This document shows, piece after piece, positions 1,575-39,278 of a stretch of 64,000 bases of DNA. Each line of letters starts with the position of its first letter. Position 1 is the first letter of the stretch. The translations under genes were made by a program, and so were the position numbers. The notes under the pieces are model-generated. The model made no database searches. It saw only the letters and a program-made list of their open reading frames with translations, and was not told where the DNA came from. The stretch lies in contig KL647309.1 of NCBI GenBank assembly GCA_000727475.1, positions 875,820-939,819 of the forward strand, read 5' to 3'. Origin of the DNA: Sarcocystis neurona (lineage: Eukaryota > Apicomplexa > Conoidasida > Eucoccidiorida > Sarcocystidae).

Positions 1575-1588
1575 GGTGTGCGTACACC
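1575..1588. promoter_or_regulatory. Palindrome copy GGTGTGCGTACACC (one mismatch)
   Basis: This is the leftmost member of the palindrome family with consensus GGTGTACGTACACC. It lies about 1.6 kb upstream of the CCDC43-like start codon. A regulatory function is an inference from recurrence only. Confidence 0.4.
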
Positions 1589-3175
1589 CCAGTTAGTTTG
1601 ATGGGACGGCTCGTGACTTTTCTGGGAGAGTACGGCACACGCATCGTTCTCCAGGCCGCAAAGGACAGGGCAAAGAAGATTTGAGGAATCTTTTTCAAAC
1701 TCGTTTTCCCCGTGACCTTCAGAGGGACACACAAGGGGACTTCCACACGGAAGAAAATCGTGTGTAGTACGGGTCAGAGCAGGCATGCGCAACAGCCGAC
1801 GTCCGAAACTTGTACTCGAACTACCGCAAGCCAAGACAGACCTACTATATACCCAAGCGAGGTTGTGTAAATAAATACTTATGTACACAGAAGTGTAGGT
1901 AGATATATGCAACAAGAGTTCTGCGTATTCATACACACATCCGTGCGTACGAGCACGGGGAGGTGGCCGACAGTGTCTCGCACTGCACACTAAGAAATGC
2001 CGGCCGCCAAGGGCATCCGAGACGGCGCATGCGAGGAGGATTGACTAAAGCGCCGAACGTGCTGTGCAGAGCCGGGCAAAATAAAACTCGAGGAGAGACT
2101 GTTCGTTCATTGAGGGCTACCGCGTGATTCTTTGGACGAATTTAAGCTATTGACAGGTGACCTCCTGTAAAAGCTTTTTCATTGTTTTAAACAGGAGAGC
2201 CGTTTTCCTCGGCGTACTTTGTCGGCGGCCACTTCATTTTTTCGGAGGCATGCGTGACCCACATTTTACTTTGCGGTACTCCTATCGAGATCATGCCGTA
2301 AAGGCTCTCCCAATTTGCTGTTTCCAGACAAGTGCAGCGTTACTGTAAGGAAAAGGATGTTGTTTTGTTGAAAGCGAGGCCCGTTTGGTGCGTCTCTCTC
2401 AAGTTCAGCATGCGGCCGGCAGTTGGCCTTCGCTCGCGCACATTAACGTTGCGACAGGAGCTACCTTTATGGAGGAGTAATTGCAACCGATGCATTCAAT
2501 CTGCAAACCTTGAGAAATCTCCTGGGCATCCGGCCTGATAATTCTTCGTACCGCTCATAACGTGACCAGCCCCAACCCGTCCGACGCGCAGGAGAGTACA
2601 TACACGCCTGCAACTACACATTTATCTATCAATGCCCTAGTAAGTAACAGTGTGCCTTTCTCTGATTAGTACCGCTGCCGTCATCCACTACTCTGTGAAG
2701 CTGGCTGAAATAGCGTGTCACTACGTGGCCACAACGGCACCCATGGATCCAAGATAGAGCCTTGTAGGCGTTTACAAGATACGGTTTGACTTTTGCGCCG
2801 CTGCGGAAGTGTGCTCCACTATAGCTTTTTTTCCAGTTGTTCTGCCCTGGAAGAATTCCTAGCGGACCAGCTACGTCTTCTGCATCGTGGAGAATTGTTG
2901 TAATAAAAAAAAAAAAGCTTTTTCAACAGCTGCCGAAGATCCACGTCGAGTTGGTGCTCTTGTGGTGGAATTCCGCGCACACACGTGAATACACTTGTAG
3001 TATACGCGTAAGCATACAAACTTTTGACGTCACCGAAGATATTTGCGTACAATCGGCTGTCTGCTTCGAGTAAAAACGGAAGTATGCCCACATCTGTAAT
3101 GCACGCGTCTTGTTCGAACGGCAAACGAAGTGAAAAGGAGGGATTCTCCCAGAGGCAGGATACAAAACACAAATC

Positions 3176-3257
3176 ATGTTCTCCGGTAGCCCCGCCTTCG
3201 AAACTTATCTCTGCGAGCAGCTGGAGAAGCTCAAGCTCGACACGGACATCTTCAAAG
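3176..3257 (+). CDS. CCDC43: CCDC43-like exon 1 (start codon exon)
   Basis: The exon encodes 27 residues from ATG (MFSGSPAFETYLCEQLEKLK to DIFK) plus the first base of an Asp codon completed in exon 2. The donor is AAAG|GTGCGG. The junction residue gives IFKDYVVGIL, matching the family pattern VFGDYIKGIL. Confidence 0.8.
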
Positions 3258-3610
3258 GTGCGGTGCTGTCTAATTGCCACACTCCAGATCCTGGAGGTCT
3301 AGTGTTACACATTTGTGTATTTCTTGATTCGCGTATTTTTTCTCCATAGTGTCTCCTACATGTATCAATTGATGAGCGTTTTTTGTGTTTCTACAGGATT
3401 TACGTAGAGTCGCACTCAACAGACACTCTATCTGTGTCTTTCTTCTTCTGTACCGCATATATATACATACGGACAAGATACATATCAATATATGTATCTA
3501 TATATATACCCGCAGCTAGATCTAGAGAACGCAGAAACGAGCAGAGTTACGCATACGTATAAACACAAATGCGTATATACACATATATGTATGTGTCAAT
3601 AGCGTATATT

Positions 3611-3645
<35 letters not shown>

Positions 3646-6600
3646 GTATATAGCGGTATACGCCCTGATCTCCTGGTGCACCGCCATGTGCATAATGAGC
3701 ACACGTGTGCAAACGTGTCTCTCTCCTGTGCAAGATGTGCACAGTTTCTGCGTCAAGTTCCCCCACTTTCCCGCTTCTTCACACTTTTACCTGTTTATAT
3801 ATATATATATATATATTCCGCTGCAACTCTGTTCTTTCGCTCTCCCTCTCTCGTGTCATCTTATTTGCTTGCGACTGAAGAGTAGATCGACCAAAATGCG
3901 GGTCGTCCTATCTACCCGATTTTGTGGTTCCGCGTCATCCGTTGCATTCTCCTGGCGGCGGTTCATGGAAGAAAACTACGTCTACCCGCCCAATAAATGC
4001 ATTTCTCTTTCCTTCTTCGTGTAGATATATGGGTCACTGACTACGTACGTATATGTGGAAATACTTCTCTACCCTTTGTGTGTACTCTCGCAGTACGTAG
4101 ACGTAACTATTTGTCTAATACGTGTGTATATATATAGGTGCAGTACATAGACGTACCTGTTTGTCTACAATGTGTCTAATTGCTGATACGATATACATGG
4201 GCATATGTGTAGTATGCGTGTAGACGTTGACAACGTGTATGTGCAAAATATGTATATGTACATGTGTATGTGTATAAATTATACATATGTATATACATAT
4301 ATATGCGTACGCGTAGAAGATCTACTCTTGTGTGCGTGTAGTATGTTCTGAGTGTGTAGGCTCTCTCTTTCTCATCTCCCTCTGTCTCTCTCTACGTATA
4401 TGCATATATAATAGATACATACTTGTGTACGTGTACACTACCTATGTAGACATATATATACGGCCTTCACGTCGTGTGTATTTCTTTTTGTAGATATCGG
4501 CAGACACCGCGTTACGGCGGCCCTGGCGGAATAAGTGGAGCCTTGGCTGCGTTGTAGAAGTTCTGAAAACGACACGTGTTGCTGCTCGTATTTTCTGTGA
4601 CGCCTGCAATACCTCTGAATGTCTCGGTTTCTCCTTCTCCTGTTTTCCGGCCTTTCTAGTTTACCTTTCCGGCTCTTTTTGATCTCCTATCATCGCGCAT
4701 GCTTTTTTCGTGTCTTCTTCCTCTCTATTCTCTGTCTCTTCGCTCTTTACTCTGCGCAGGCGCTTACCGGGCGATATGTCCTGGTACGCGCCGAGCCATA
4801 TTTCTTCTTTAAAGGACTTTTCTGCTGTGTACAAGTGAAGTATTATTTCTGGTCTGTTATTTGCCTTTTGCTCCTTTCTCCTGCGTTACCGCCTCTGTCT
4901 TCTTTTCTTGCACGTCTGCTCCTTCGGTCACACCTTACAACCATAAAAACTACTACACAAACATATGTACGCCCTTTCGCCTATACTCGCACGTCACTGG
5001 CATATGAGTCTATCCGTCTCTTATCAAATATACATCTGCATACGTATTTATATATATATATATGTATATAAGCGCACGTATATGCTTATATGTATATATG
5101 TGTACTGTACATGTGCATATATATGTATATATGTGGGTTATATATACATACCCCCTTCTGTCTCTTGCTCTCTCAATGCACATCTTTGTGTATCTGCCCG
5201 TCTCTCTCTGTACATATATATGTGGAAGTATGCAAAGCTATTGCTGAGGAAATGTACGCTTCCATATATGAAGATGGATAAGTACATGTGCCCTTGTTTA
5301 CTTTCCCTTCCTCTCTCTTTGTTCACTGAATCGCGAGGCGGTGTGTGTGCGGTCCCGCACTTCTTTTACTCTGCAGATGTGGAACAAATTTACCAGCAAG
5401 TACTATATCTGGCAACTCGTGCACGTCTGAATATTGACAAAGGCACTGTCTTTTCTTTCCGGACACTGTGGATGGGCGATATGCTGTGTGCGTGTCTTTG
5501 CTTTTCTCTCGTGCACTCCTCGTTCACGTGAGTGGAGGGGCTTCCCGCTGCTGTGTTCTTTATTCTGCCGTCGATACTTGCCTTTTCTGCTTTTTCTCGT
5601 CCCTGTCTGGCTTTCGTTTTCCTGTGTTTTCGGCAGACTACGTGGTGGGTATTTTGCAAGACGAGACGGCATCGGCTGCAGAGAAGGAGAAGACAGTGAG
5701 CGAGAGTTTGCTGCTTGCGGTGTGTGAGGGAGAAGAGGAAGAGGCCGCTGCTGCTGCAGTTGCTGCTGTTGCTGCTGCGTGCGTCGAAAAGTGGGAAGCC
5801 GACTATCAGGAGTTTCTCTCTTCCAGAAGAGCAGAACGGGCTGTTGGTGCTGCCTCTTCGACTTTTCGCCGCCCTGGTGCTGCTGGTGCTTCTCCGGCGG
5901 CAGCGACATCCGCGTCAGCAGCAGCAGCAGGAGAAGAAAAGGCGCACGCTGCAGCAGGCGGACGGAAAGGAAGAGGAGGAGCGGCAGCAAACTCCTCTGC
6001 TCTCGACCAGAGTGTGAAGCAGGTAGACAGCTGCGACTGCGGGAGGCGCACATCCATCTGCAGCAGCAGGGTGACGGGGACGCCCGTACTCGACAACAGA
6101 GAAGAGAAAAAGCAGAATAAGAAGGAGAAAAGGAAGAGGAGTATGGGTGTGCGTGGGGGAAGTGTCGTCAGCAGGGGTTTGCATGCAGATATAAAAGAAG
6201 AAAAAGAAGAACTTTGTTGTCGCCGGGACATGTCCACTGGGGAATTAAGAATAAGAAGAGAGGGAAGACTTTTTCTCTCTTGTAGCAGGAGACGCAGAGA
6301 CAGCCCGTTGTATATTTTGTACCCACTAAGAGCCTCAATTTTTCGGATGAATCGAAGAAGAAAAACTGGAGAAGAAGGAGAAGCAGGAGGAGAACACGCG
6401 TTTCCCTCTTTTCCCAAGTCTCCGGCAAAATTACACAAAAATTGCCGCAGTTTCGTCGAATGCAATGCGCATGCGTTTGAAGACTTCTACCATTTCTGTG
6501 TATACATACAGAAATAGTGAACACATATATATTATATATATATGTGTAGTGGTGTACACATAAATATATATGTATTTATTATACAGAGTAGCTTGTGTGT

Positions 6601-9600
6601 TTACGATGTTATGGAGATGTGCAGAAGTATGGATACGTATCCGTCAGGGGGGACTGTGTCAGTATAAATTTACTTCGGCAGCGTTGCCGTTCATCGATGA
6701 GAAGGAGATTTTGTAGGAGGGAGTGACTGATGGTGAAGGACCTGCTGGTACTTCTGTTGCTGTTGTTGCAGCTGTTGGTCTGGCTGCTGCTGCAGTTGCC
6801 GTGGTCGTCTTTGAATTATTATTTTGGTGTTGTTCTCGCCGTCTTTTCCTCTCGTCGACCCGCATCTGTTATGTCTGTTCCATTGTGCTGCTGTTGTGTT
6901 GCTGACACTCCCCTGGTGCTGCTCCTGCTGCTGCTGCTGGCCATCTGCCGCAGAGGCTGATCGAAGAATTTGCCTGGCAGATAGATGAGACGGTCGACTT
7001 TGATGAGGACAGCGGCGCCCTGCAGCTGCAGCAGAGCGGCAAAAAAAAGGCTGTCGATGACGAAGACGCAGCTGTTTCACACTTGTGGAAGAATGAAAAC
7101 CGCGCCCGAGTGAGTTGTCCCCTCTCTATCTTTTTTTCTATTTCTTTCTCTCTCTTCCGCGTCCCTTACATGGACGTTTCCGCTCTTCTTTTCTGCGGTT
7201 GTTCTGGTGAGTGGTGTCTCGCCTCGCTTTTCGTCCGACGTTGGGGTGAGTGGCCTTCGACTTCTTCTTCAGCGTCACCGTCAAAAGCAATTTTCTTCTT
7301 CGTCGCGTTCCCTTCTCTGTCTCTCTTCTTCTTAATATTTGACTGTCTGGGTCGAAGTTCCTCCTTCTTCTTTCCTGGTCGTCGCTTCTCCTTCTCCACC
7401 GCTCGTCTTCTTCTTCCTCCTCTTTGTTGCAATTCTGTCGTCGAGGAGGACGCGCTCCCGGCCTGCGCCTCCTGCCGTCTGCAGACGGTTGCTGCTGTTG
7501 ATTCCCTTCACAGACTGCGCTTCGGCGACCTACCTTTACCTTTCTAATTGTATATCTTGGCGCCTGCACGCGTATACATGCATATATATATATATGTGCA
7601 CAGGTAGATAGATTTGTCTACGCGTATATATGTGTATATGCATATACATATATATATATATATACATGCGTATATGTATATATGCGTATGTGTGTGTGTC
7701 TGCATGCATACGAGCACGAATGTACGTATGTACGTGTTCTGATGTGTGTTCGGGTTTGTGTATATTTGTGTCTATGTCTCCGTGGGCGTGTGTCTGTGTG
7801 TGTCGATGTGCGTCTCTCTCTTTCTTTTTCTCTTTCTCTCTCTGTCTCTCTCTCAAAAGATATATATGTATATATGTGTGTGTATATATATAAATATATA
7901 TGTAGCTGAATATAGTAGAAACTTGAATTTACGTTTCATTCGTATCTGTACGTAGAGAGGTCTCTTCTCTCACGTGTGTGTGTGTGTGTGAAGCGCCGTA
8001 AGAAACATCTCTAGGAGCCATATGTGTGTGTATATATATATATGTATGTATAGGGGTGTGCACGTGCAGGTACATGCAAATGCAACGAATATGTTTGTTT
8101 CTCTCACTTGACGCAGCGATGATGAAAAGGTCGTATTTTCCTGTCTACCTCTTCTTCTCTTCAACATTTCGAGTATCTCCATGCAAATGCATGGGTACAT
8201 ATATATATATATATACATATATATATCTGAGTGTTTGTGTGTGTCTGTGTGTGTGTGTGTGTGTCTACTGCGGCTTCAGGTGCAGGCTGCGCAGCAGCTG
8301 CAGCGACAGCTAGCGAAAGCCCAACATGAGGAGTAAGTGGACTTTCTTTTTCCGGAGTAGAACAAGGTTTCTTTTCCAAGAGGGACGTATTCCCTCGTTT
8401 TTTAGCACGAAAGGATGTGTCTCTGTTTGTCAGTCCATCTCTTCGTCCGTCTGCTTGTCTTTCTTCTTCTAGCGGTACGGCATCACAAATCACCTGCGTG
8501 CATGTTATGTGTGTGTGAGCAAACGACGAAGCCTTTTTTTCGGTCAGCACTGTGAGGCGCGAGGAAGTTAAAATATGTACGCACATACATATTCACAGGT
8601 GACAAAATTTTGTCATACACACGCACATTATATACATGCATACATCCTGATGTTCGCATATATATATATATATATATATCTATGGAGGTGTTGTGTGTAG
8701 GTGTCTGCATACAGGGGATACAGAGAGCAAGAGAAAAAGGCGTACACATACGTATGCAGCTCTTTATAAGTTGTTCTTCACACACATGGACACGTGTACA
8801 TATTGATGTATATACATATATATATAGACGTGTTGTGTGCGCGTCTATATACAGAGAGAGAAAGAGACAGAGAGAGAGAGGGAAATACTTCTGCAGAGGA
8901 ACGGTCGGCCTGTGTGGGCTGTGTGTGTCACTGCGGCGTGTGGCAGTACGTGAACTCTCCCCGCATTACCCCTCGGCCGTCATCCACAAGGCGAGCAGAT
9001 ATTTTCTTCTTGCAGGACTTTCCACAGTTTCCTTCCACAGATACAACTTTCCAGCCGTATCTCTCTCTCCGTCTTCTGGTCCTACTCTCTCTCTATATAT
9101 ATATATACATATATACATATATATCCATACGCGTGCGTTGTTGTGGCGGGCCTGAGTTATGTTCAACATATATATACACATGTGTATCCATATATATAGA
9201 GATACACAGAGAGAGAGGGATGGGCAGCTATAGATAGATATTGGCGAATGGGTTTATAGATGTAGATGCAGACTCGTGAGAGGTGCACGTCTCTGCGCGT
9301 CTGTTTGTCTCTCTTCTTCTACGTTTTCTCTTTCGCTTCATACACGTGAACATAGATTCAACATATGCTTGTAGGTGGTGCATTGCCTATGCTGACAGTA
9401 AACGCATGTATTACGTACACGTGCGTCTGGGCGTGTTTGTGTGAGCCGTCCAGCTTCTGTAGAGACGCAGTATCAAGACAAGGACGTCTTTGTGTATATG
9501 CCGCTTCACTGCGACACCCTGGTGCTGCAAGCCAGGAAAAGCTGGCCGTTATGCCGTGCTCATACAGATCTTTAAACGTGACTGTCGACCTGCACGTGCT

Positions 9601-9642
9601 GCACATATATAGAATGTGTACACCCATTTATATATAATATAT

Positions 9643-9680
<38 letters not shown>

Positions 9681-10782
9681 TAAGTGGCGCCGTAGGTGTA
9701 TCTTGGGGGCTGGTAAACGCGTGAGGTCTACACGCTGAATCGTACGTGTTAACACTGAAGGACACCGTGGCTCAAAAATTTGTACTCACGTCATACGGAT
9801 GAATTTTGTTAGTCTTATAGGCTTGCACAGATGTAGACAGATAGGTGGATATATATAGATATGCGTGACGAGTGTGTGTTCATCTGTGAAAGTCGAAGTA
9901 TTTGTTTGCATACACGTGCGTCGGTCGGCTGCCTCCTAGCCACGTTGACATTCCTTTACACGACTGCTCGCACACGTTCCCAAGTTTCTGTGTGTGCGTT
10001 GCTGTATCTGTACGTGGGTAAGGAATGTATATACCTATGTGTATACATTACATATATATCTATGTATGTATGTATACGGCCGCGAAAGTACATGCATCTA
10101 TATATATATATATGCATGGAGTTCGCTTCCGACGTCTTTTTCTGCAGAGAAAGGGCTGCAGAGGCAGAGAAAAGGACCGATATAAGAGACGCGCTTCTGT
10201 AGCAGCGCCAGTCATACCGTCTTGCATCTGGTTGTGTGTTCCTGCGTATGTACGTGCTTTCTTCAATTCTACACGAGCTAGCGGGTTGCATGTGTCTCAT
10301 GCGCCTGTCTTCGCGAGACGAAGAAGTAGAGAGCTGTAGAAGATTTATTTGATGACAGCTGTGGGTCCGCTGCGCGAGGTGACCTCTGCTCGAGTCCACG
10401 CAAAGATGTCGCGCATGCAGGAAGTTGATTTTCCTTCGTGTCGAAATAAACTGATGTAGTCACCAAATCTCGTGTGTGCAGCTGTCGTGAGCTGCGGGCA
10501 GGGCTAGGGGTGCAGTCCGGCAAGGAAAAAGAAGACGAGAACGAGAGAGAAATCGCAAGAGATCCTGCAGCAGTAGCAGCAGCAGGAGCCTTCGCAGCGT
10601 GGAGTAGTGGTTCTGCAGCTAGAGCACCTTGTTGCGAGGGCATGTGTATGTGGGGCGTCACTGTGTGTGTGACTGTCGGCAGAGAAATGAAGAAGAGAGC
10701 GGAACAGAAAAAGCAAGAACTTCTAAAGAAGGAGAAAGAAAAGGTCCGCGTCTCTAAAAAGGAAAGACGCACCGGTCGCTAG
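3176..10782 (+). CDS. CCDC43: CCDC43-like protein, five exons, 258 residues
   Basis: The gene is assembled from exons 3176-3257, 5637-6022, 6954-7109, 8280-8332 and 10683-10782. These sum to 777 bases with phase kept at every junction. The product matches the layout of the coiled-coil domain-containing protein 43 family: an N-terminal helical domain (LDTDIFK joined to DYVVGILQDE, then VEKWEADYQE), an acidic middle (LIEEFAWQIDETVDFDEDSG, then LWKNENRAR) and a Lys/Glu-rich coiled-coil tail ending KKERRTGR. The human protein is about 224 residues; this one is longer because of an Ala-rich insert in exon 2. The cellular role of the family is poorly known. The assignment rests on motif order, not on a database search. 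Introns are 0.9-2.4 kb and full of TA and GT microsatellites. Start choice: the ATG at 3176 immediately precedes the conserved N-terminal helix. Confidence 0.8.
3430..5290. repeat. TA/CT microsatellites inside CCDC43-like intron 1
   Basis: Repeated (TA)n, TATATG and (CT)n arrays alternate with T/C-rich unique sequence. Open frames here translate to Tyr/Ile or Leu/Phe strings and are not credible proteins. No exon is needed between exons 1 and 2, since the protein motif reads straight across. Confidence 0.8.
5637..6022 (+). CDS. CCDC43: CCDC43-like exon 2
   Basis: The acceptor is TTTTCGGCAG before 5637 and the donor CAG|GTAGAC after 6022. The first third carries the conserved helical domain (DYVVGILQDE, then KWEADYQE). 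The last two thirds are Ala/Gly/Arg-rich and built on GCA/CAG-type repeats, a homopolymeric amino-acid insertion typical of Eimeria proteins. The exact 3' end is less certain because the low-complexity part stays open in three frames. Confidence 0.75.
6954..7109 (+). CDS. CCDC43: CCDC43-like exon 3
   Basis: The exon is 52 codons, phase 0 at both ends. The acceptor is CTGCCGCAG and the donor CGA|GTGAGT, a near-consensus site. It encodes RLIEEFAWQIDETVDFDEDS, then KKKAVDDEDAAVSHLWKNEN. This corresponds to the family segment with an acidic stretch followed by a FKNTNVEEV-like motif. Confidence 0.85.
7560..9700. repeat. TA, GT and GA microsatellites in CCDC43-like introns 3 and 4
   Basis: Arrays of (TA)n, (GT)n and (GA)n occur at about 7580-7720, 7790-7900, 8030-8260, 8655-8685, 8810-8880, 9090-9240 and 9635-9680. 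The 53-base exon 4 at 8280 sits between them. No further exon was recognised. Confidence 0.75.
8280..8332 (+). CDS. CCDC43: CCDC43-like exon 4
   Basis: This short exon runs from acceptor GGCTTCAG to donor GA|GTAAGT and encodes VQAAQQLQRQLAKAQHE plus two bases of a Glu codon. Using the AG three codons in would drop only V-Q. It starts the charged coiled coil. Confidence 0.8.
10148..10202 (+). CDS. Possible alternative terminal exon of the CCDC43-like gene
   Basis: The acceptor TTTTTCTGCAG is followed by one base and then 17 in-phase codons (ERAAEAEKRTDIRDALL) ending in TAG. The phase is compatible with the exon 4 donor, as with the real exon 5. Use of it would replace the Lys-rich tail with a shorter charged tail. 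It may equally be a chance match. RNA reads are needed to tell. Confidence 0.25.
10683..10782 (+). CDS. CCDC43: CCDC43-like exon 5 (terminal, stop TAG)
   Basis: The acceptor is ACTGTCGGCAG. One base completes the Glu codon from exon 4, then comes EMKKRAEQKKQELLKKEKEK and a Lys/Arg-rich end KKERRTGR before TAG. The basic coiled-coil terminus is the best conserved part of the family after the N-terminal domain. Confidence 0.85.
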
Positions 10783-11215
10783 CGTCTCGACTTCGCACTC
10801 GTTTTGTTCTCTCTCTGTTTCTCCTCCCTTCCTCTCTTTTTTTCTCTCTGCGGGTCACCTCTCTGTGCAGTAGCGCCTATACGGACGTAGGATATTGTCG
10901 GGTAAGGAGGACACGCGTTTGGTTTAGAAAGTAGGCGCGGCTACTGCGGCCGGTGCTGTCTTTCTCTCGAAACTGCTGCCGCATTCTGGTGTACACTTAG
11001 AGTCCACAGCCGCTCCTTGTCCTCGCCAGACACGTGGGTGCGGGCGGGCGTGCACCCTTGCGTCCTCAATATATTTGTATATTCTATACAGATCTGTCGA
11101 TTTGCAGCTGCAGGTTTTAACCTGCGGAAATAGAGGGAACCGCGGCACACGGTGAGAGTGTGCTGCTGAAAAAAACGCTTTTTCTCTTCCCTGCGTGAAG
11201 ATGATGTTTCGGTGT

Positions 11216-12043
11216 GGTGTACGTACGCCACACGGGACGTCTCTGTTCCACGTGTGTTAAGACGGTGTATGTACACCTCCTTGCCCTGCCTGCGTGAAAC
11301 GCGTGTGGGTGTGGATGTAGACTTCTTTTTTCGTCTCCAGTAGTTTTCACTGTGATGGGTGCGGCACATTTTCACCCCCGCTTTTTTACTTTTTTACCGC
11401 TTTACTGTCGATACGTACGCGACCTGCGCCCCCTGTGTGTGCGGCGCATTGCTCCTTTCTGCATTCGTCGGTGTGCGTTCTTCGCCGCTTCTCTCTTAAA
11501 GAACAGGGTGATACCGTTCGGTCCCTGCCCCCGTTGTGTGTCTTTTTGTGACTGCGGTGTACGTACACTCCGTTGCTGTTGAGACTCACCACACGTCTCT
11601 CCGTATTGCGACGCGGCTGTAGGTTGCAATCCAGCATTTCACGTCTACACTGTAGTTTCTCTTTCTTATCTGGGGTGTACGTACACCGGGTGGCCGCTGT
11701 ACTTGCAGAGCCTTCGCTTTCCGTCTTTGCTGCATTATCTCTGCACTATTTGGAAACGTCGATCTACTTCGTTTTCGCCTCTCGTTCACTCGTTTAGTTG
11801 AAGGAACTCGCAAGGTTTCTGTTTTGTGGACGTGTACACAATGTGGTCTGTTACGTGCATATACCTAGATGTTTACCTTCGAAAAGACCGCTCCACAAGG
11901 ACGCTTCGTGCTTGTCGTCACACACGTCTGAGTCCTCCCCGTCTGCGGTGTACGTACACCGCAGGTGGTCGTGGCACCTCATTGAAACCAACTGAATTTT
12001 CAGGAACTTGTAGGAAAGAAGAAACGTACGGTGTACGTACACT
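11216..12043. promoter_or_regulatory. Cluster of six GGTGTACGTACACC palindromes
   Basis: Copies lie at 11216-11229 (GGTGTACGTACGCC), 11264-11277 (GGTGTATGTACACC), 11556-11569 (last base T), 11674-11687 (perfect), 11947-11960 (perfect, extended to the 20-base palindrome TGCGGTGTACGTACACCGCA) and 12030-12043 (last base T). This density is far above chance for a 14-base word. A transcription-factor site, a cruciform or a mobile-element remnant are all possible. The function is unknown. Confidence 0.55.
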
Positions 12044-12098
12044 GCAGGTGGTCGTGGCACTGGCACCTTACTAAAATCAGTTGAATTTTCAGCAACTT
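11947..12098. repeat. 83-base tandem duplication containing the palindrome
   Basis: Copy 1 (11947 to about 12013) and copy 2 (12030 to about 12098) share the palindrome, then GCAGGTGGTCGTGGCAC, then a CTGAATTTTCAGGAACTTG/TTGAATTTTCAGCAACTTG block. Copy 2 has a small insertion (a second TGGCAC). Confidence 0.8.
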
Positions 12099-12899
12099 GT
12101 TCTGCCTACAACGTGGCGGCAGTGTGCGTGAGAGAAGAAGTTTCGATATCAAGCATCCGCGTGCGTCCAGCGCTCTCCATTGCGTTTCTGCGTTTCCGGA
12201 GAAACAATTTACAGAAAAGCGAGGAGGAAGAAATGTTGTTATTTTTTTTCTTCTCCTCGTCTGTCTCCTTTATCGCTGTGCGAGCTCCTCATTCGGTTTG
12301 AAGTACATCTCTTTTTGACATGGACTTAAAGAACAGAGGCATAATAGGTAACCCCTGGCTTGCAGGCATCTTCCTCAGACACACAGTCGCGCATGCTTGA
12401 ATAGATGCTTTGAAATACAAATATTTGCTGACGCATATATATATGTATATACATACATATATGTATATATATATGTCCATATGTGTATGTATTTTCTTGT
12501 AATCAATACACGTAGATATAAATATATTTGCTTATAGCGCTTATACATATGAGAATGTCTCTAACTGTAAATAGGAGCCCAAGGGCACACGTATACACTC
12601 AGGCATGTAACTACATATACCTATATTCAAGCCGGCGCGTGTAGCTGGGTACCGGTGTACTGATAAATATATAGATGTCCACACGCGTTTCCTGTTCAGG
12701 AATAAATGCATGTAGCTCCAGACATGCAGCCCTACACACGTGTCTGCTTCTACGTCGAAGAAACGTATGTATCTGTACAGACAAATGCATGTATGTATAT
12801 AGTCATGTGACCAGGTGAACACTCACACTCACATATATATATATATATTTCGGCAGAGCACTACTACGTATATAGGTCTGATATTTATAAGTAGAACAA

Positions 12900-13730
12900 T
12901 ACTTGACGTGCTGTTAAACAAATTCAGAGAAACAAGGAGCGGCAGAAATTTTGCGCTGGAGCCCTCTGCACCTTTCTGCAGAGGAAACCGCGTTGCTACT
13001 GAGAAGCACTCGGGCGACGCACACACGTTGCGGCCTGTCACACCCTGTCGTGCTCCCGATGCTGCTGCTGCTGCTGCTCCCCGTGCTGCCGCTGCTACCG
13101 CGCTCTCCCTCTGCTCTTGCTGCTTTTGCTTCCAGCGATGCTGCTATTTGGCCAAGAAAATGAGAAATCGTTCTGCATCCGCACTCGCTGCATCTACACT
13201 GCCCGGAGCGCACTGCGTCCCCGCGCGTCATCTGCGTAGCACCACACGCGCAGTTCTTGGTGTTCCTTCTGCTCTGGTTGGCCTGCCGCTGCTGCTGCTG
13301 CGCGTGCTTCAGTTCCTGACGTGGTGACTCTTGCTTCTGTTACTGCGACTCTTATGTCTAAACTGCCGCTGCCTATCCTTCTACTTACCTTGCTTGGAGC
13401 GCTGCTGCTCTTGCTACACCGAAGGCTTATTGCTGTTCCTGCTGGTGCTGCTCGTGTGCTCCCGGAGGAGATAGTTGTGCGGCTCCGGCCTTTTTTCGCA
13501 AGTGCCGTTGCTGCTGCTGCTGCTGCTCCTATCGTCCCCACGCAGCTGCTGCAGACGCGCTGCTGCTGCAACGTTACTACGCGCGTCGCATTCATGCTGC
13601 TGCGGTCGCTGTTGCTGCCGCTATTGCCCTGCTACTGTCACTGCTGTCCCTGCTGTTGCTGCTCCTGCGTGGGGCGCTCGGCCGAGGAAGAGTCACCAGC
13701 TGCTGCTAAAGGCAGGGAAGAATGAGGAGG
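12900..13730 (+). CDS. Candidate coding region, CTG-rich, unrecognised
   Basis: An open frame reads ETRSGRNFALEPSAPF, then an Ala-rich run. A second segment near 13455-13520 reads RVLPEEIVVRLRPFF, then Ala runs. They look more protein-like than the surrounding repeats. The CTG tracts between them keep all three frames open, so exon limits cannot be set. No family is recognised. It may belong to the gene whose last exon ends at 18040. Confidence 0.3.
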
Positions 13731-24078: not shown

Positions 24079-27000
24079 GTAGGTGTATGTGACGAGAGAG
24101 AAGTAGACCGGTGGCGCAAGGCAGTGGGACTAGACAAGTGCTGTACTTAGAAGAAAAAATTTGTCTCTGCATATATCTCTCTTTATATCAACATACATAT
24201 ATATACATATGTATAAGTATGTACACACATATGTATACGCATATATATATATATATATATGTAGAGAGAGAAAGCGGGAGAGAGCAGCAAAGCGAAAGAA
24301 GGCACGGCTGTGGGCACCGGGGCGGGGAAGTTTAACGCAGCAGCAAAGCATCTACTCACTTGTCGATTTGCAGCGAGTCGCCGCGCGGTTTCTTCGTTCA
24401 GAAAAAAAGTTCTTCGCAGATCCTCCCTCCGCTGCTGCGGCGTCCGCAGTTGCTCCCTTCGACAACGCAGCACGAGCACCATCACCCTCACCCAACAAAC
24501 GCATTTATTCTACACACCTATGCATGCATGCATTTCTTCAAAGAATATGTGATACATACATTCATACACATTCACACATATACATATATATATATATATA
24601 TATATTTCGACTATACATACTTGCATCTCCCTCTGTCTCTCTCTCAATATGCATATATATATACATGTATATATGTCCACAGAGTGCAGCAAGTCACACT
24701 AACGTGTGTAGATATATTATATAGAACGACACATCAATATTGGGGTAATATGAATGGAAGCGATGTACGACACCTGAAGCAGAATAGTGAGGGAAATAGG
24801 GCGTGCAGAGATTCGGCAGGCGCAGACGCCTGCGAAGATACACACACACACACATATGATAGAAAGTGCTTGTTGCTCGATCTCTTTCTCTGGGAGAATA
24901 GATAAGCCTATCCGTACAAACGTAGATAAACAAACGTGCGTACATACACATGTACATATATATATATGATATTTGTATACGTCTGGACAGAAGGAAGAGT
25001 CCATTCTCCACACATATATTTATATATACACACATATATATGGGGAAAGACGGAGAAAAACAGAGAGAAATAGCCCACGATGTAAATTTAGAGACAGATT
25101 TTTGCATAGATATATATATACACACAAATGTATACGTATGTGTATACGAATACATATATATATTGTAGAGAGATGGATGATACGTAAAGATTGCGTAGCG
25201 CACACAGAAGCTTGTACATACTCGTCCGTGTGATGCAGTGACAGAAAAGAGGACGGTGGTGCGAATATGCAGCCATCCGAGTGTATGTACACCTGAGACG
25301 CATGCACGGGGGGGAGCTTTTCTGCGTATCACATTCAAGGGTGTATACACCTGAGACGCATGCACGGGAGGAGCTTTTCCGCGTAGTACAATCGAGTGTA
25401 TGTACACCTGAGAGAGTCCAGAGCCTGTTTGCCGGGCAAGGCGATGGGGGGCAGCAAATTCTCTCGCACGACAAAGTACTCTTGAGACGCAAACTTCCGG
25501 CGCATCCGCAGGGTCGTCTGCAGGGAAATAAAGTGCAGGGAAGTGCAAAAAGGAGGATCTGGAAGAGAAGGCTGCGCGGGGAAAAAAGTAGTACAGATGA
25601 AAGAGAAGATAGAGGCAAAGGCCAGTGAGGGGAAGAAAAGAGAGGAAAACCGGCGGCGCTTCTCACGCAAGCCCAACAGGTTCGACACAAATCGCAGGAG
25701 CCACAGCAGCAGGAGCAACAGCAACAGCAGCAGCAGCAACAGCAGCAGCAGCAACAGCAGCAGCAGCAACAGCAGCAGCAGCAATAGCAGCAGCAACATC
25801 AGCAGCAGCAGCGTCAGCAGCAACAACAGCAGCAAGAGCAAGAACAGTAGCAAGGGAAAGCAGCAACAGTCCCAGCAGCAGGAGCAGTAGCGACAGCAGC
25901 AATCAGAGCAGCGGCAGCAGCGACAGGGAAGTGGGCGGCAGGGAGCGGAGGAGGAGAATGCGGTTGTCCAGGTGACGCACAGAGTAAGTAGCAGCAGCAG
26001 CAGCAGCTGGTTCGTAGTTGCGCGAGGCGTGGAGGCAGGCAACTTTGCTGGACGTGTATCGCAGAAAAAATTTTGAATCCTGGGACTGCCCCCGGGTGGG
26101 GACGTCTCCCTGCATGCACGCGTGTGTTTAAAGGAAAAAGTGCCATATGACTCAACAGCGCACGTCTTCCTACACTTTTGCTGCACATACAGAGAGAAAG
26201 CAAAGCGGGAGAGCAGTCCACACAGAAAACGAAAGAGAAAGACAGAGAGGAAGACAGCGGAGACAAAAGCGACAAGAAAAAAAAGGAAGGAAAGGTAGAG
26301 GAAGATTCCCAGTGAGAGACAGACATATATATATATATATATTTATATATATGTGTATATATATATATACACGTGTATATATATATATGTGTATATGTAT
26401 GTATGCATATACATGTGTATATATACACATATACGCGTATATATGTAGAGAGAGAGAAAGGAAGAGAGACACGGATACAGAAAGACGGGAAGGAGAAGAT
26501 ATCCCCGATATACGTGTGTGTGCTTCTTCGTTTTATATGGCCCAAGCGACCGCGTAGTTTGTTGTTCGACGAAGACTGCTGATGAACGTTTTGTGAAACT
26601 TCCTCGTTTCTCCAAACGGGGAATATGAAGGGACGAAGAAAAGCATGTAAACCAACGGTACCTTTTTGTCTTCGCACCACATGCGAGTCTCTTCAGCAAG
26701 TTCCTCTTCCTCGTCTTCTTTTGCTTCCTCTTCTTCTTCCTCTTCTGTCTTCTTTTCTGCGACGTTCTTTGCTGCTGCTGCTGCTGTTGTTGCTGCGTCG
26801 TCCTCTTCTCGTTTGCCTCGCCTGCTGCCTTGCAGTGACGCGGCTCCTGCAGCAGGCACTGGCGACGCTGCAGAGGCAGTGCGGCTATCATCAACAGCAG
26901 CAGCACGTGCCTGCTGTTTCAACTGCGCGTTAGTAGTGGAACGTTGGCCGCTGTATTGCTGATGCTGCCCCTGCGGCTGCTGGTGGGAAGGCCGCAAAAT

Positions 27001-30000: not shown

Positions 30001-32951
30001 ACCGGCAGCAGCAACGCAACTCCCTCTCTTCTTCAGAGAACACATACATCTACACATAGCGAGAGACAAAGAAAGGAAGAGAAAGATATATACATATATA
30101 TATATGTGTATACATATACATATATAGATAGATAGATCGATGAAGAGATATACATGTATATATAAGTGGACATGCAGATATTGGCGGGGATGTGTTAGAG
30201 TGAAGGGAGAAAAGAGAATACGCTCAAAGAAATGAAGGCACATCTGACGATGTATCTGCTCCTTTGTTAGTCTCTCGTCATTCACACATACAACCTCCTT
30301 TGAACATCCATATCTGTACAAATATATGTGACTACATGCAACATTACACCCACCCCACACCCACACAAAAGAAACAATATACACATACATACATATATAT
30401 ATATATATATGTACATATGTAGGTATATATGTGGAGAGACAGACATATATATATATGTATCTTAGAGAGAGAGACACACATATACGTCTATATATAGATA
30501 TATATATATAGAGAGAGGTGAAGATATGTATATACGTATATATAGGTGTATGGACTCTCATACAGAGAAGAGAAGGGAGCGCGTTGGAGAGACCGAGAAA
30601 AAGAAGGAGAAAAAGAAATGCATGCAGAGAAGACGAGAGAAACGGAGATAGCAGAAGAGAAGGAGAGCGACAGAAAGGCAGACGAAAACACGAAGAAACT
30701 CCAGACAGACCCACCAGCGCACGTGTATTATCTCTGCTCGGTATATACACGAACACAAACATTTGTACTGCGTCTTCAGCTTCACAAGCTGTTATCCCTA
30801 TATATATGTGTACGTATGGATATAGGTACATATGTATGTGGATACAGATAGTACTCGGACCAGCAGGAGCCGCGGTGGTCTGCAGCAGAAGTATGCGACA
30901 AAAAGAGGAGATCCCACAACAACACTTCAGATGAAGCTGCTGCTGCTCCGTTATTGTCCACCACTGCTGCACTGCTGTTGCTGTTGCTACTCCTGGGGCT
31001 GTTGTTGCTGCTACTCTTGTTGTTGCTGTTGTTGCTGCCGTTGCTGCTCCTGCTGCTGCTGCTATGCGTCCTGCAGCTGCCTGGCCTGTTGTTCTGCACC
31101 AGTTGCTGCTGCTCTGCTTCAGACGAGGCGGCTCACCGGCAAAGCGCAGCAGCTGCGACAATTCCCTCAGAAATTCTACGACCTCCTCTTCCGAATACAA
31201 GTCAGGCTGCAAGAGATAAACAGCAACGTGACCGTCAACGCAGCAGCAATGCCGGCGGCGGTAGCGACGACAGGGCAGGATGAACCGCAGCAGTTAATCA
31301 GCAGCAGCAGCGACAGCCAGAGCCTCCAGCAGCAGCAGAAGCAGAGACAGCTTCTGCGTCGCAACGACAGCGGTTACAGCAACAGCAGCAGAAGGAGGAG
31401 GAGCACGAGCAGACAAGCAGCAAAAGCAAGAGAAACAAAAGTGAGAGCTGCAGCAGGCAGGATAGCAGGAGACACCTGCAGCAAAAGAGAAGCAGGCACG
31501 GCCAACAGCCGAAGGGAAGAGAGACGGACAGCCTGCTTCTCCAGCGGAACAGCAGCAAACAGAAGACGCGTGAGATGTCAAGCAGCTGCAGCAGCTACAG
31601 CGCATTCCAGCCGATCAGCAAAAATTGCTGCAGAACAGCAGCAGCAAAGGAAGCCGCTGCAGCACTCCCGGCAGTCCCAGGAGCAGCAGCAGGTGCAGCG
31701 GGGGCTGCTGTGAAGCAAGAAGTGTATGACAAAAACCTGCAGCAACAGCGGACGGGCAACAGCAGCTGCAGCGGAATCAGCGGCAAGCGACAGACAACAG
31801 CAACCAGCCACGGCAAACGTAGCAGCAGCACGTCAAAGCAGCAGTCGTAGAGCAGCAACAGCGCGAACAGCAGCAGTACCGCCGCAGCGGGAGTGGCGAG
31901 AGAAGCCGCAGCAGCAGCGCTGTGTGATATATGCAGCAGCGCGGCAGCAGCAGCAGCGTCAGAGACAGGCGGCGGATTGTGGGCGCAGACTGCGACGCAG
32001 CGTTCCACCGACAAATATGTGAGGCCCATGAGAAGGCGGGGCGCTGCGGAAATTTGGTTTTTTCGCCAGAGAAAAATCTAGAGGATAGAAAAGGAGAACA
32101 GCGATATGAAATAATTCTCGGGATTGCAGCGAAGGAACTGGCGAGGGAAGTCAAAAATGCGCATGCAAGTCCCTCAAGCAGCTCTCTGTCTTCGTATCCA
32201 CAGAGCAATGCGGCTGACACTCCGCTGGGAAAAGAAACTGCTCATAATCTCCATGACATCACTTTTTGCCTTCCTTTACATATACTCTATTTTATTACTA
32301 TTACACGTGTATTCTCTATATCTAACTATCTCATGTGTACTATATACATATATATANNNNNNNNNNNNNNNNNNNNNNNNNNNNNNNNNNNNNNNNNNNN
32401 NNNNNNNNNNNNNNNNNNNNNNNNNNNNNNNNNNNNNNNNNNNNNNNNNNNNNNNNNNNNNNNNNNNNNNNNNNNNNNNNNNNNNNNNNNNNNNNNNNNN
32501 NNNNNNNNNNNNNNNNNNNNNNNNNNNNNNNNNNNNNNNNNNNNNNNNNNNNNNNNNNNNNNNNNNNNNNNNNNNNNNNNNNNNNNNNNNNNNNNNNNNN
32601 NNNNNNNNNNNNNNNNNNNNNNNNNNNNNNNNNNNNNNNNNNNNNNNNNNNNNNNNNNNNNNNNNNNNNNNNNNNNNNNNNNNNNNNNNNNNNNNNNNNN
32701 NNNNNNNNNNNNNNNNNNNNNNNNNNNNNNNNNNNNNNNNNNNNNNNNNNNNNNNNNNNNNNNNNNNNNNNNNNNNNNNNNNNNNNNNNNNNNNNNNNNN
32801 NNNNNNNNNNNNNNNNNNNNNNNNNNNNNNNNNNNNNNNNNNNNNNNNNNNNNNNNNNNNNNNNNNNNNNNNNNNNNNNNNNNNNNNNNNNNNNNNNNNN
32901 NNNNNNNNNNNNNNNNNNNNNNNNTGTATATATATATACATATATATATAC

Positions 32952-32982
<31 letters not shown>

Positions 32983-33514
32983 GTGAAGTCGCATATATCT
33001 CATATATCAAGACGTCGCATATATTACTTTTCTCATTATCTGAGGTACATTATATATATGTACCGCTATCTTCGTAAGATTACACGTATATCTTATCTAT
33101 TATGTATCTATCAGTACGTGATTTCTACTATATATATCTCTGTATTTCTGCCATATTACATAAATATATCCGTACGTCCGGTATATTATATAAAGCAGGA
33201 CTTCACATATATATATCGCACTACGTCAGGAATATAACATATAAATCTACCGGTACGTTAACTACATTATATATCACTATCTCATGTATACTATATATGT
33301 AGCAAAGCATCACATATATTGTAGGTCTCACCACCCCAGGTACATATGTATAGATATATTTATGAGTACGTCAGTTGTATAAAATGTTTGAGTACGCCAG
33401 GTCTATTTTCGTATGTGAGAATATCAAGGAGAGAACAAAGAAGACTACGCCGGGCCTATTTTATCTTATGATATCATCTACATAATATACATATACATAC
33501 ATATATGCGTATGC

Positions 33515-33546
<32 letters not shown>

Positions 33547-36500
33547 CAGTCATTTTAAATACTTCAGTAAGTCACTTCTGTTATTATGACCCACTATATC
33601 ATAGATATATATATGTATGGGGATTTCATTTATATTGTTATACCTCAGTATCTCATATATATATATAGGTGCTGCTCGCCTGGTCTTTCCCATAGCGTCG
33701 ATACGCGATACGTACAGACACATATACGTATATTTATACATATATACATGTGTTTGATGTCTCTCAATATGTCAGTTACATTATGTGAATATATCAGGCA
33801 TATGAGATCCTAGTATATCAGGTATGACACATACCTCAGCACGTAACATATATAGCATATACATATGTATGGACGTTAGCTAATACTGAATATCAAACTG
33901 TATAAGTTCTCTTTTATATATCAGCACCTAACTTGTATCACAAATAAAGATAGACACACATATATATATATATGTACGTACATATGTGTATGTGTGTATG
34001 TATGTTGTACGGACACTGTGGGGAAGATAGGGCGACAATCACATACAGAAATACGTCCATATACATATATGTATATATGTTAGATGAATAGTTTATGTAA
34101 AGCAGAGCGACGCGCCTCTATATAATTATGGACATATGTTGATATTTGTGTGTATAGATGTACACGTATATATAGATATATACAAGTCCACTTATATGTA
34201 TATATATATATGTATATTTATAGATGTACGTATGGGTATACACAGGCACACAGTTACGTGAAAAAAGAGAGACGGGGTTTGTTGGGGGTTTGTTGCAGCC
34301 CGAGAGAAGAGGAAGCAACGCGGAAGTAGACGCAGTGGTGATGTATCTTCTGTCCTCGGCATGCATATACATATATAAATGTACGCATATATTTATATAT
34401 ATGTATTCCTTGACGACAGTACGGGCGAGACCCGAGGTGAAGGAAGAGAAGGCGCGAGAAAGATAGAAGGAGGAAGGAGATATATGAAAGCAGCAGCAGC
34501 AGCAGTCTACCTCAGTGACAATTTCGACGAGGGGAACCGAGGCCCTGTTGAAGTCGAGCAGCGTCCTCCTGTTCTCTGCTGCTGTTGCTGCTGCTGCTTC
34601 TTCGCTCTTGCTGCTGCGTCTGCTCCACGAAGCCTGGGCGTGGCCACCACTCGCATCGTCTTCCGCACGCAGCAAATATTATCATTCAAGAAACGTCTTT
34701 TCTCTGTTTCGTTCTGTCCCTCATCCTCTCTGCTAACCACCTGTACTCCCCTCAACCTATATATCTGCACGAATCTATCTGTATTTGTCTACCTCTACCC
34801 ACCAATACCTATACGTCCATCTATCTTATCTATCTGCCAATGTCTATCTATCTATAAGTGTATATATACATATATTTACTTGCAGATATCACGCATTTAT
34901 ATATATACATATGCGTATATATGTATATGGAGACTCACCTATAGTCTTGTTTACATATGCAGGTAAGATGTGTAGTGTCTTACAGTTCCGTCTACACTTT
35001 ATATACACCTATATGTGGACATATATGCAGTTGCTGCTATCTATCACATACACGTGTATATGTAAAGTTACTTACATTCCCGCGCGTATAAATGTATTTC
35101 TCTTTCGACCAAAAAATACATATATATACTAACACTTCAGTTCCTATTGCCGCAGAGGTACTTTCTGCCTATATACATACACATATATATTTATGTATGC
35201 GTGTAAATATAGCAACATCACCCTACCTCTTTCTCTCTATCTATCTACATATATATATATATGCAGACGCGTCGGTCTTCCTTTCTTTCTCCTCTTCTGT
35301 TTTTCGTTCTCTTTGTCTATCTCTCCATACACACATATGTACGCATATATATATATATATATACACAGATTACTGTTCCTTTCCCTATTAGTCTTTGTCT
35401 TCTCTTCTCTCTCTCTATATGTGTATTTATGTGGGAATGATATTTTTTTCCTTTCTATTTCCCTTTGGTGCTCCACTCCTCCCGCAGGCGTGAATTTGCA
35501 TGCGCATGCCTTCTTGGGGAAATGCCACGGAACTCTTGATATACAAAGTCAGAAGGCAATAAACAGGAAGCGAGACAGAGAGAGAGAAGGAGGAGAAACG
35601 AAAGGAAGGAAGGGAAGAGAGCGAAGGAGAGGAGATGAGACAGAGGAAGATGGAGAGGACAAGAAATCGAAGAAAAGGGCAAAAGAGACGAAGAGAAGGG
35701 AAGGGAAAAGGAAAAGACAGAGAGAGAAAGGAAGAGGGGGAGAAAAGAGATATGCAGACAAAGAAAGACACACACAGAAAGAGGAAGAGACGGGAAGGCA
35801 GGGAAAAAGAGGAGAAGAGAGACAGCGAGAGGAAAAGACGGGAAGAGAATGAAGGGGGGGGAGACACAGAGGCAGGGAGACGGGGAGAGATAGGGAGGCA
35901 GGGAGAGAGATAGGCGGACAGGGGGAGAGAGACAGGCAGGGGACAGATGACAGAGAGACACAGAGACAGGGAGACAGGGGGACGCAGAGAAGACACAGAG
36001 ACAGGGAGACGGGGGGACAGGGAGACAGAGAGGCAGGGAGACATGGAGATAGGGAGAGAGAGGGGCAGGGAGACGGGGAGACAGGGAGACGGGGAGACAG
36101 AGAGGCGGGGAGACACAGAGAGAGGAAGGCACAGAGACGGGGAGACAGAGAGACGCAAAGACAGGGAGACGGGGGGACAGAGAGACAGGGAAACAGAGAG
36201 GTAGGGAGACAGAGAGAAGGACAGGGGACAGAGAGACGGGGAGACAGGAAGACACAGAGTAGACACAGAGACAGGGAGACAGAAAGGCAGGGAGACATGG
36301 AGATAGGGAGACAGGGAGACAGGGAGAGAGAGACAGACAGGGGACAGCGTGACAGAGAGAGAAAGGGAGACGGGGAGACACGGAGACAGGGAGACTGGTG
36401 CTGGGATGCACATGTGTGTGTGCAGGGACACAGAGTTCCTGGCTTGGGGAGAGTGAAGTGGACCGAGAAGAAGAAGGAGAAGAAGAAGAGAAGAAGCAGA

Positions 36501-39278
36501 AGAATTACTTCTTCGTGCAACATTTTAGCCGTGTCCTCTTCCAGGTGAATGCTGCGAATGCGAACGGTGCGGCCGCACGCCGGCAGCGTCAGCTGCCCCT
36601 GCCTTCCTATGGGACTGCAGCAGCAGAAGAAAAACGGCAGCAGAACAGCAGCAACAGCAATAGCAGACGCAGCGGCAGCAACAAGAGCAGCAGCGGCAGC
36701 AGCAACTGCAGCAGGAGCAGTAGCAACCAAAGCAGCACAGTGCCAGCAGCACACGCGGCAGCAGCAGAGGCAGGAGCAACAGCAAAAGCAGCGGAAACAC
36801 CGGCAGCAGCGGGCGCGCCGAAGAAGCAGCGGCAGCTACACAGCAACACAAAGAAAAGCGCAGCAAAACACACAGACAGCAGATGCAATACCGAAGGCCC
36901 AGCAGGGCCCGTTGTTTTGACGAGAGGAGAATCTCAAGTGCAGCAGGAGAGCAGGGGAAAGACGAGAAGAGAGAAGGAAGAGAAGCAGAAACAACGGGCA
37001 GGAGCAGCAAAGGGAGAGAGACCCCCCCATGCAGTAACAGCAGCAGCGGCGGCAGGAAAAAGAGCGGGAAGCACAGAGGGAAGGTAGACGACTGCACTCC
37101 GGTGACACCAGCAACGGCAACAGAGACAACGGCAGCCCAGCAGCAAAGCAGCAGCACCAGCACCAGAGAGGCGCAGCAGCAGCAGCAGACCACGGAACCC
37201 AGACGCAGCTGCATCCGTAGAGCAGCGCAGCTGCAGCAGCAGAGGAGGACGAGGAGGAGGAGACTCCAAAAGAAGCAGCAGGTGATGGAACAGCGGCAGC
37301 AGAGGGGAGGAGGGGAGAAGTGACGAGCAGCAGGAGAACCGAAGTGGCGCGGGAGCGACCGGAGCATGCGCCGCGCCAGCAGCAGCTGAGGGACAGCAGC
37401 TGCAGCAGCAAGACGGAGAAGAAACGGAGGACAGGAAATTGATGAAGCAGGGAACTGCAGGGAGACGAACAGCAGACAAATAAGGAGAAGGAGAAGAAGG
37501 AGAAGAGAAGGCAGAGAAAGAAGAAGAAATAAACGAAGACGAACAAGAAGGCAGGACGACAAAGCGGAGCAGAACGATAGACAACAAAGGGTCAGGAAGA
37601 AACGAAGACAAAGAAGAAGAAGAAGAAGAAAGTGAGAAGAAGCAGGAAATGAGACGCTTACTAGCGCACTTGAGAAATTTGGTAATTTCTCCCGAGGTCT
37701 GGGTAAAAATAGCATTTGCGATCAAACTCAAGAACCTCCGCTGCAGACAGGAGAAACCCACTTCCTCCAACCCACACTTCCGGTGTACGTACACCCCAAG
37801 ATGCGTCCACACAAATACACACCTATATGTCCGCACATATTATAAGTACACAAATACATGTATATATATGTGCATGAAACGGCGAAGGTTTGTGAGAAGG
37901 CCTGGATGTGGACAGGCACACAGGCAGGGGAAAGAAGAACATACGAAGAAAAAGGAAGAGAACATAAATGTACGGGAGGGGGATATATACGCGAAAGTCG
38001 AAGTGTACAGAAATTCCCCCCCCAGTGTCACTTGGAGTGGCCAGCTCCACGCACAGAGACACACACGCACATATCCTGCGCGAGCCACCCCCTGTCTCGT
38101 CTCTGCGTTCTTCTTCACTTGATGGTGACCCGAAATTCATCATCCACGCCAAAATGTCTGCCCCTTCCATCCTTCTAAATTTGCTTTCTTTTCTCCTTCG
38201 TACATGCAGCAGCACCCTCATACGTGCCTATTTCTCTGAGTTCTCTGCGGCTCTCTACACTTCTTCCCATTCTCTCTTCGATGAAGTCCCTCGTCTTCCC
38301 AGTTTCGTATTCGTCTGTCTTTATCTATCAATCGATCTATCTATGTAGACCTTCCCATATACATATATATGTCTGTGTGCTTTCCTCCCTCCCTATCTCT
38401 TCCTCTATACATATATATCTATGCCTCTCTGCCCCGGACGAGGCTACGTATGTGTATTGATATATACTTGCACATATATATATGTGCAAGTATACTTTAT
38501 TATCCACTTCAATATATGCAGATTTGTTTGCCTATTTATATTTATCTATCCACATTTATATGTACGTACACCCAGGAGATACATGCGAACTTTTCTTTCA
38601 TTGTCGCTTCTTCGCTCTCTCTGTCTTTCTCCCTTCACATCTGTGGAGGTCAACCTACAAGCAGATTTCCCTATATCTGTATCGACCGGTATACTTCCCC
38701 ATTTAATACATATATATGTGATATGTATATGTACGTCTCTTCATGTGTCTGTATCTGTGTTTACCTCTCACTCTATACATATATACACGTGCACATATAT
38801 ATATATATATCTTTGTCTATCTATTGATATGTATACTTCTATCTTGCGGCCTTCCTATGTTCCGCTCTCCTATATATACATATGTGTATGTGTCTCCATC
38901 TCTGTCTTTCTCTAGATATGTATATATGGGCCTTTCTTTATCAAAGTTTCTACTTGACTGTTTGCTTTTCTGCTGTTTTGTAACTTCAAGTGAAGAACCT
39001 GCGGAGGGAGAGTTCGCGACGAACGGAGGCGTCTGCTTGCGGTCCCTCACTTCTTCCTTCACTAATAAATATATCCCCCGCAAGAAATCACATCTTGCAC
39101 TTTATCTGCTCTCTTCATCTTCTCCTTTTTTCTTCCTCTTTTGCTCTCGATGGATCCCCGTATACCCATATATATATACATGCCTTATACAAATAGGTCC
39201 CTACGTGACTTGCAATATATATGTACATGTATGTAGCAATTTTATTTATATATATATATGTGTACATTAATATGTACA

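Follow-up and report, generated by a model that had tools for sequence, protein, structure and literature searches.

A clustered 20-bp palindrome in the genome of Sarcocystis neurona is a candidate recognition site for a dimeric protein

The window that we analyzed is a 64,000-nucleotide stretch of the genome of Sarcocystis neurona (contig KL647309.1, positions 875,820 to 939,819), and it raises a simple question: why does a 14-base palindrome, GGTGTACGTACACC, recur in it, and what might read it? The window contains three perfect copies, five copies with one mismatch, and four copies with two mismatches. For these 12 matches, the average over 100 dinucleotide-shuffled sequences was 0.11. The initial annotation of the window had placed perfect copies at 11674, 11947, and 37782 and one-mismatch copies at 1575, 11216, 11264, 11556, and 12030, along with a related pair, GTGTATGTACAC, at 25281 and 25396. 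We located all of these at those positions (the related pair has two mismatches to the 14-mer), and we found two more 2-mismatch copies at 38559 and 59120. Judging from its sequence and distribution, the palindrome is real, strongly constrained, genome-wide, and often arranged in homotypic modules; it is most likely a site for a dimeric transcription factor, which probably belongs to the ApiAP2 class.

We counted the palindrome across the genome that contains the window (123.0 Mb in 74 contigs, with some stretches given as N), and as a control we used the same pattern read backwards. The perfect 14-mer is present 2018 times, as compared to 3 copies of the reversed control and about 0.5 copies expected from base composition. 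With up to one mismatch there are 5292 matches (control 89), and with up to two mismatches there are 10043 (control 1380). The 12-base core, GTGTACGTACAC, occurs 3815 times (control 150). Genome-wide counts no higher than those of controls had been named as the result that would speak against the element, and this is not what we found.

The recognized site seems to extend beyond the 14-mer. We examined the flanks of 37 perfect copies (those with both flanks, of 38) and read both strands, which gave 74 half-sites. The three positions just outside the 14-mer are not random: position -1 is C in 32 half-sites and G in 23, position -2 is G or C in 66, and at position -3 there are 50 T and 19 C. None of positions -4 to -13 exceeds 0.08 bits. 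Genome-wide, 291 of the 2018 perfect copies have TSS...SSA on both sides, an excess of about 34-fold over the 8.5 that base composition predicts; the control has 0. From the non-random outer positions and the excess of TSS...SSA, it follows that the full site is a palindrome of about 20 bp, roughly YSSGGTGTACGTACACCSSR or YSSRGTGTACGTACACYSSR (extended sites are described by the pattern YSSRGTGTAYGTACACYSSR). Furthermore, the two half-sites must abut, because spacers are rare and many of the apparent spacers hold an abutting core anyway: GGTGTAC and GTACACC are separated by 1-25 bp in just 106 cases in all (control 18), as compared to the 2018 perfect sites with a spacer of 0, and a complete abutting 12-mer core lies inside 22 of the 50 places listed. 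The consensus is two-fold symmetric and its spacing is fixed, as would be expected for the site of a dimeric protein.

Substitutions within the 14-mer are tolerated very unevenly. A change of G to A at the outer base (G1>A) is found at 971 sites (467 + 504; control 5), while the same change at the fourth base (G4>A) is found at 23 (11 + 12; control 1), which is a 42-fold difference. Between these extremes are C7>T, with 787 sites (383 + 404; control 4), and T3>C, with 163 sites (87 + 76; control 6). C7>T falls on the central CpG, where faster mutation may add to the class. These four classes make up 1944 of the 3274 one-mismatch sites, and the counts include copies in tandem arrays (an array at 60 kb on contig C1 contributes 8 of the 971). 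Among 27 one-mismatch sites in sampled loci (35 minus the 8 of that array, which is locus L003), 12 differ at position 1, 8 at position 7, and 7 at the other five positions. Relics of a repeat would be expected to show a given kind of substitution at much the same frequency at every position, and we saw the opposite. Because G>A is so much more common at the outer base than at the fourth, the bases of the palindrome appear to be recognized rather than decaying. Position-dependent tolerance of this sort (971, 787, 163, and 23 sites) is also what the site of a dimeric protein would show.

The sites are clustered as well. Perfect sites in the first 2.9 Mb of C1 are separated by 56 gaps, of which 13 are shorter than 1 kb (1.1 expected). 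For the first 100 core sites of C1, the number of pairs per kb falls from 437 (at 20-100 bp) through 320, 110, and 45 to 12.5 (at 600-1000 bp); farther away, it is 1.0 at 1-2 kb and then 3-7. Without three tandem groups (81 sites), the corresponding values are 62, 90, 45, 40, 12.5, and 1.0, then 2-5; the clustering is weaker but persists. Variants tend to lie near perfect sites: 4 of the 18 C7>T variants and 8 of the 26 G1>A variants (in five modules) are within 1 kb of one, as compared to 0.59 and 0.87 expected at random. A module can comprise as many as eight copies in a span of about 1 kb, and more in tandem arrays. Merging the 57 perfect sites of C1 within 2 kb gave 43 groups, mostly single perfect sites. 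This corresponds to a mean of one module per ~68 kb over these 2.9 Mb of C1 and, when scaled, to perhaps ~1,500 modules in the whole genome. Clustering of homotypic sites that were placed independently is a usual mark of regulatory modules.

The window has one such module and several scattered copies (no strand is assigned to any of these features; copy numbers are genome-wide):

11216..11229: palindrome copy, variant of the T3>C type (163 copies), the first site of a six-member module (within 830 bp)
11264..11277: palindrome copy, C7>T variant (787 copies)
11556..11569: palindrome copy, outer-base variant (971 copies)
11674..11687: perfect palindrome
11943..11964: 22-bp perfect palindrome CTGCGGTGTACGTACACCGCAG, which encloses a perfect 14-mer (11947-11960)
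12030..12043: outer-base variant, part of a unit that is duplicated locally and 83 bp away from the 11947 copy
1575..1588: palindrome copy with 1 mismatch, GGTGTGCGTACACC
25280..25293: 2-mismatch copy AGTGTATGTACACC, both changes being of tolerated kinds
25395..25408: 2-mismatch copy AGTGTATGTACACC
37782..37795: perfect palindrome whose flanks (TCC...CCA) agree with the extended 20-bp consensus
38559..38572: 2-mismatch copy, possibly a weak site
59120..59133: 2-mismatch copy with an altered center, which may be due to chance

The longest palindrome, around 11947, is perfect, as the initial annotation reported, but its length is 22 bp (11943-11964, CTGC...GCAG) and not 20 bp (11944-11963).

What would bind such a site? 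We think it fairly likely that the palindrome is a recognition site for a dimeric protein, most likely a transcription factor that acts in modules, with ApiAP2 as its most likely class. A symmetric dimer (or two identical domains) would read the palindrome, each subunit would take a half-site YSSRGTGTAC, and the two half-sites would abut under the dimer without a spacer. The factor would occupy several sites of a module at once and would thereby regulate the neighboring gene. We favor ApiAP2 as the class of the putative binder because the genome carries AP2 domains and because the GTGTAC half matches the GnGTAC motif of AP2-G. Comparison with AP2 motifs had been proposed at the outset, and indeed, the GTGTAC in each half contains this AP2-G-type core; the resemblance is a lead toward a candidate binder. 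We found 47 matches to the AP2 domain in the genome, of which 34 are above the Pfam cut-off. As to the frames that contain them, 21 of the 47 matches fall in open frames that exceed 2000 codons, with several sharing a frame, and some are interrupted by stop codons (two in the match at C6:2521796 and one at C2:3361826).

Several papers on ApiAP2 proteins allow a closer comparison. AP2-G from Plasmodium has the motif GnGTAC, and a GTGTACAC probe is shifted by its domain (PMC12190761, a preprint); TaAP2.g from Theileria binds GTGTACAC as well (PMC4537280). The AP2-G motif, as (Gx)GTACNC, is present eight times upstream of ap2-g (PMC6631176). Sequence context has little influence on the binding of AP2-G, and the motif bound by AP2-LT is a doubled one (PMC11417369). 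The likeness of these AP2-G motifs (GnGTAC or GxGTACxC) to our palindrome lies in the GTGTAC of each half, with the core GTAC occurring twice in the palindrome. The ApiAP2 motifs GCTAGC (TgAP2XI-5) and TGCATGCA (AP2-EXP) are themselves palindromic, and the AP2 domain of AP2-EXP forms a domain-swapped dimer (PMC6631176, PMC11417369), so at least one palindromic ApiAP2 site comes with a dimer structure. These motifs differ from ours in sequence and are far shorter, and TGCATGC is not enriched near the palindromes.

Other well-known elements resemble the palindrome in part. CTCF and NRSF have long, strict recognition sequences in thousands of dispersed copies. Our sites are likewise long, strict, and dispersed, but they are palindromic, which the sites of CTCF and NRSF are not, and no such family is tied to them. 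HIP1 of cyanobacteria is a highly repeated, short, dispersed palindrome, which is shorter than ours and much denser; ours differs in clustering in modules of up to ~1 kb.

Several observations weigh against an ApiAP2 transcription factor that regulates neighboring genes. AP2-G is reported to need little context beyond GTAC (PMC11417369), and its motifs are about 6-8 bp, whereas the palindrome requires about 20 bp, strictly paired and without a spacer. The earlier suggestion of a site for a dimeric DNA-binding protein, such as an AP2 protein, is well supported by the base-specific constraint, the strict spacing, the independence of the halves (below), and the clustering, but no AP2 protein or other binder is linked to the palindrome. 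The position of the palindrome relative to genes is at best weakly 5'-biased. Of the 13 modules in the 300-500 kb region of C1, 6 are on the 5' side of an open reading frame (ORF) at a distance of up to 2 kb, as compared to 2.0 expected (p = 0.009), and 1 is equally close on the 3' side (1.9 expected); these ORFs are a home-made set from a coding model, with two frames weaker than the rest, and the 2-kb distance was picked after seeing the data. If the two weaker frames are dropped, the 5' bias falls to 5 of 13 (p = 0.027). There is no 5' excess at 1 kb (2 vs. 1.2), and at 5 kb the p value is 0.10-0.13. We also inspected nine further clusters by eye, using weak ORFs: five are on the 5' side, three are on the 3' side, and one is unclear. 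Coding DNA is not clearly avoided either, as 4 of the 13 modules are inside ORFs (4.3 expected). The statement that no copy lies in a recognized exon holds for the window, where our ORF model places 0 of the 8 sites with at most one mismatch in strong ORFs, but it is not general. In the same region of C1, a perfect copy (C1:452236) is inside a likely coding exon, two one-mismatch copies are inside strong ORFs, and another perfect copy (C1:311794) is inside an open frame of uncertain coding status. Finally, TGCATGC and GAGACG, which are coccidian promoter motifs, are not enriched near the palindrome sites (ratios of 0.51 and 1.01).

Might a protein bind the palindrome for some other purpose? 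An architectural or insulator site, or a replication origin, would organize chromatin or replication rather than single genes. The modules are sparser (one per ~68 kb) than the density expected for genes, some sites are inside open frames, and a long site in thousands of copies is typical of insulator factors. We still consider this explanation unlikely, although it carries some weight, as the gaps between modules along the contig are about random (coefficient of variation 1.07) rather than regular and the modules have a weak 5' bias relative to ORFs. It is far less probable that the palindrome is the remnant of a transposon or of a miniature inverted-repeat transposable element (MITE), such as its terminal repeats, or that it is a satellite spread by tandem duplication. 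Some copies do lie in local tandem arrays or duplicated units (L003, with 22-bp units; L035; L037; L047; and 11947/12030 in the window). Between places, though, the flanks are unrelated: when we masked the motif and compared 47 representative sites, flanks were similar in 7 of 1081 pairs, as compared to 57 of 1081 for random positions, a set that is inflated by CAG-type repeats. Within modules, 68 of 74 site pairs that are 60-1000 bp apart have a flank likeness no higher than the 99th percentile of unrelated pairs. Local duplications apart, we found no sequence shared beyond the motif, as the terminal repeats of a transposon or MITE would have. Because the flanks are mostly unrelated, the palindrome does not seem to be a mobile repeat, and its substitutions are not neutral (971 vs. 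23 for the same G>A change). An origin from a MITE or transposon is largely refuted by the unrelated flanks between and within modules.

The perfect self-complementarity of the palindrome also brings to mind a DNA cruciform or an RNA hairpin that acts as a structural signal in splicing, termination, or processing. When we folded five window copies as RNA, the 22-bp copy at 11943-11964 gave a long, strong hairpin (z = -2.2), while the other four had z from -1.19 to 0.18. A hairpin or cruciform would favor the compensated double change. The symmetric double outer variant is found 105 times (control 2), and ~117 are expected if the halves are independent (971 squared / (4 x 2018)); therefore, at the single pair of positions examined, compensatory paired changes are not in excess. 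Furthermore, the spacers that would give a better loop are rare, and the preference past the 14-mer is a loose one for G or C rather than for strictly paired bases. We hold a structural signal to be a touch less probable still than a mobile element. Terminal repeats, cruciforms, and RNA hairpins had all been listed as possible roles by the initial annotation; the mostly unrelated flanks contradict the first, and the lack of compensatory excess and the poor tolerance of a spacer contradict the others. As for a mutational or compositional artifact, or chance in a repeat-rich genome, simple repeats are plentiful here, but the controls are lower by ~110-fold (window shuffles), 670-fold (perfect copies, reversed), and 25-fold (12-mer), which leaves this explanation with next to no probability. 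The shuffled and reversed-pattern controls rule out chance or composition as the origin.

If the palindrome is indeed the site of a dimeric transcription factor, then a single master regulator, AP2-G-like and bound to two abutting GTGTAC halves, might control a large stage-specific program via the ~1,500 modules. We find this quite doubtful. If it were true, the palindrome would report across the genome on events such as sexual or bradyzoite commitment. To our knowledge, few links from factor to site are known in this group of parasites. The palindrome provides a specific bait with which to isolate its binding protein, and its copies mark candidate target regions throughout the genome; the comparison of substitution classes (971 vs. 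23) marks a likely binding site from sequence alone, without expression data. Our literature search found no mention of the element, which may be described elsewhere; among the matches listed, the 14-mer string was in no paper and the 12-mer string was only in a paper on aptamers. For a regulatory motif of an apicomplexan, the palindrome is unusually strong, with ~2,000 exact 14-base copies, a strict constraint over 20 bp, and frequent clustering; the motifs named in the papers cited above are mostly 4-8 bp (PMC12190761, PMC4537280, PMC6631176, PMC11417369).

Among the genes near palindrome sites, Saf4/Yju2 has a secure start codon (MSSLEA, as in Toxoplasma), and a one-mismatch site (C1:473003) lies ~1.4 kb upstream of it. 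A search with the Yju2 protein gave scores of 197-193 bits for Besnoitia, Toxoplasma, and Neospora, as compared to 144 and 130 bits for two Eimeria species. By this one gene, the genome is closer to Sarcocystidae than to Eimeria, which makes the earlier attribution to Eimeria doubtful. We scanned 50 ORFs against Pfam and found domains in 5 of them (RCC1 twice, CEP44, Saf4/Yju2, and GatB_N), with one RCC1 match below the cut-off. Near C1:429-444 kb, the two RCC1 ORFs may belong to a single gene, in which case the palindrome sites there would be intronic; a protein search with one of these ORFs found nothing.

A possible partner motif of the palindrome is CTCCGGA, which is about 10 times more common within 400 bp of sites than in other non-coding sequence (11 occurrences vs. 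5 in a background five times as large; p = 2.5e-8, uncorrected for the number of words tested). Its occurrences are spread over several loci and do not come from one array (L010, L014, L022, L026, L028, L044, and 12195 in the window). GCTAGC has a weaker excess (9 vs. 14 in the background, p = 0.003).

The tandem array in L003 (1650-1980, or about 60.27-60.60 kb on C1) has eight successive 22-bp units with the outer G>A form of the palindrome and is potentially a high-density binding array. L037 (C2, ~101 kb) and L035 (C1, ~10.086 Mb) contain diverged local repeats with copies from tens to ~190 bp apart, and each copy has a perfect or near-perfect palindrome. CAG-type repeats (AGCAGCAACAGC and similar) are very abundant in C1:300001-500000 and in the window, and open frames there contain stretches of Ala, Gln, and Ser; similar homopolymer repeats have been described in Eimeria.

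In the window itself, scans with Rfam and for transfer RNAs gave no matches. An AT-rich block at 32001-36000 (GC content of 0.33, as compared to 0.45-0.60 in the other 4-kb blocks) lies shortly before the copy at 37782. On the minus strand, an open frame at 39565-41493 matches the GatB_N catalytic domain (amidotransferase subunit B), which is the sole Pfam match among the 20 window ORFs scanned.

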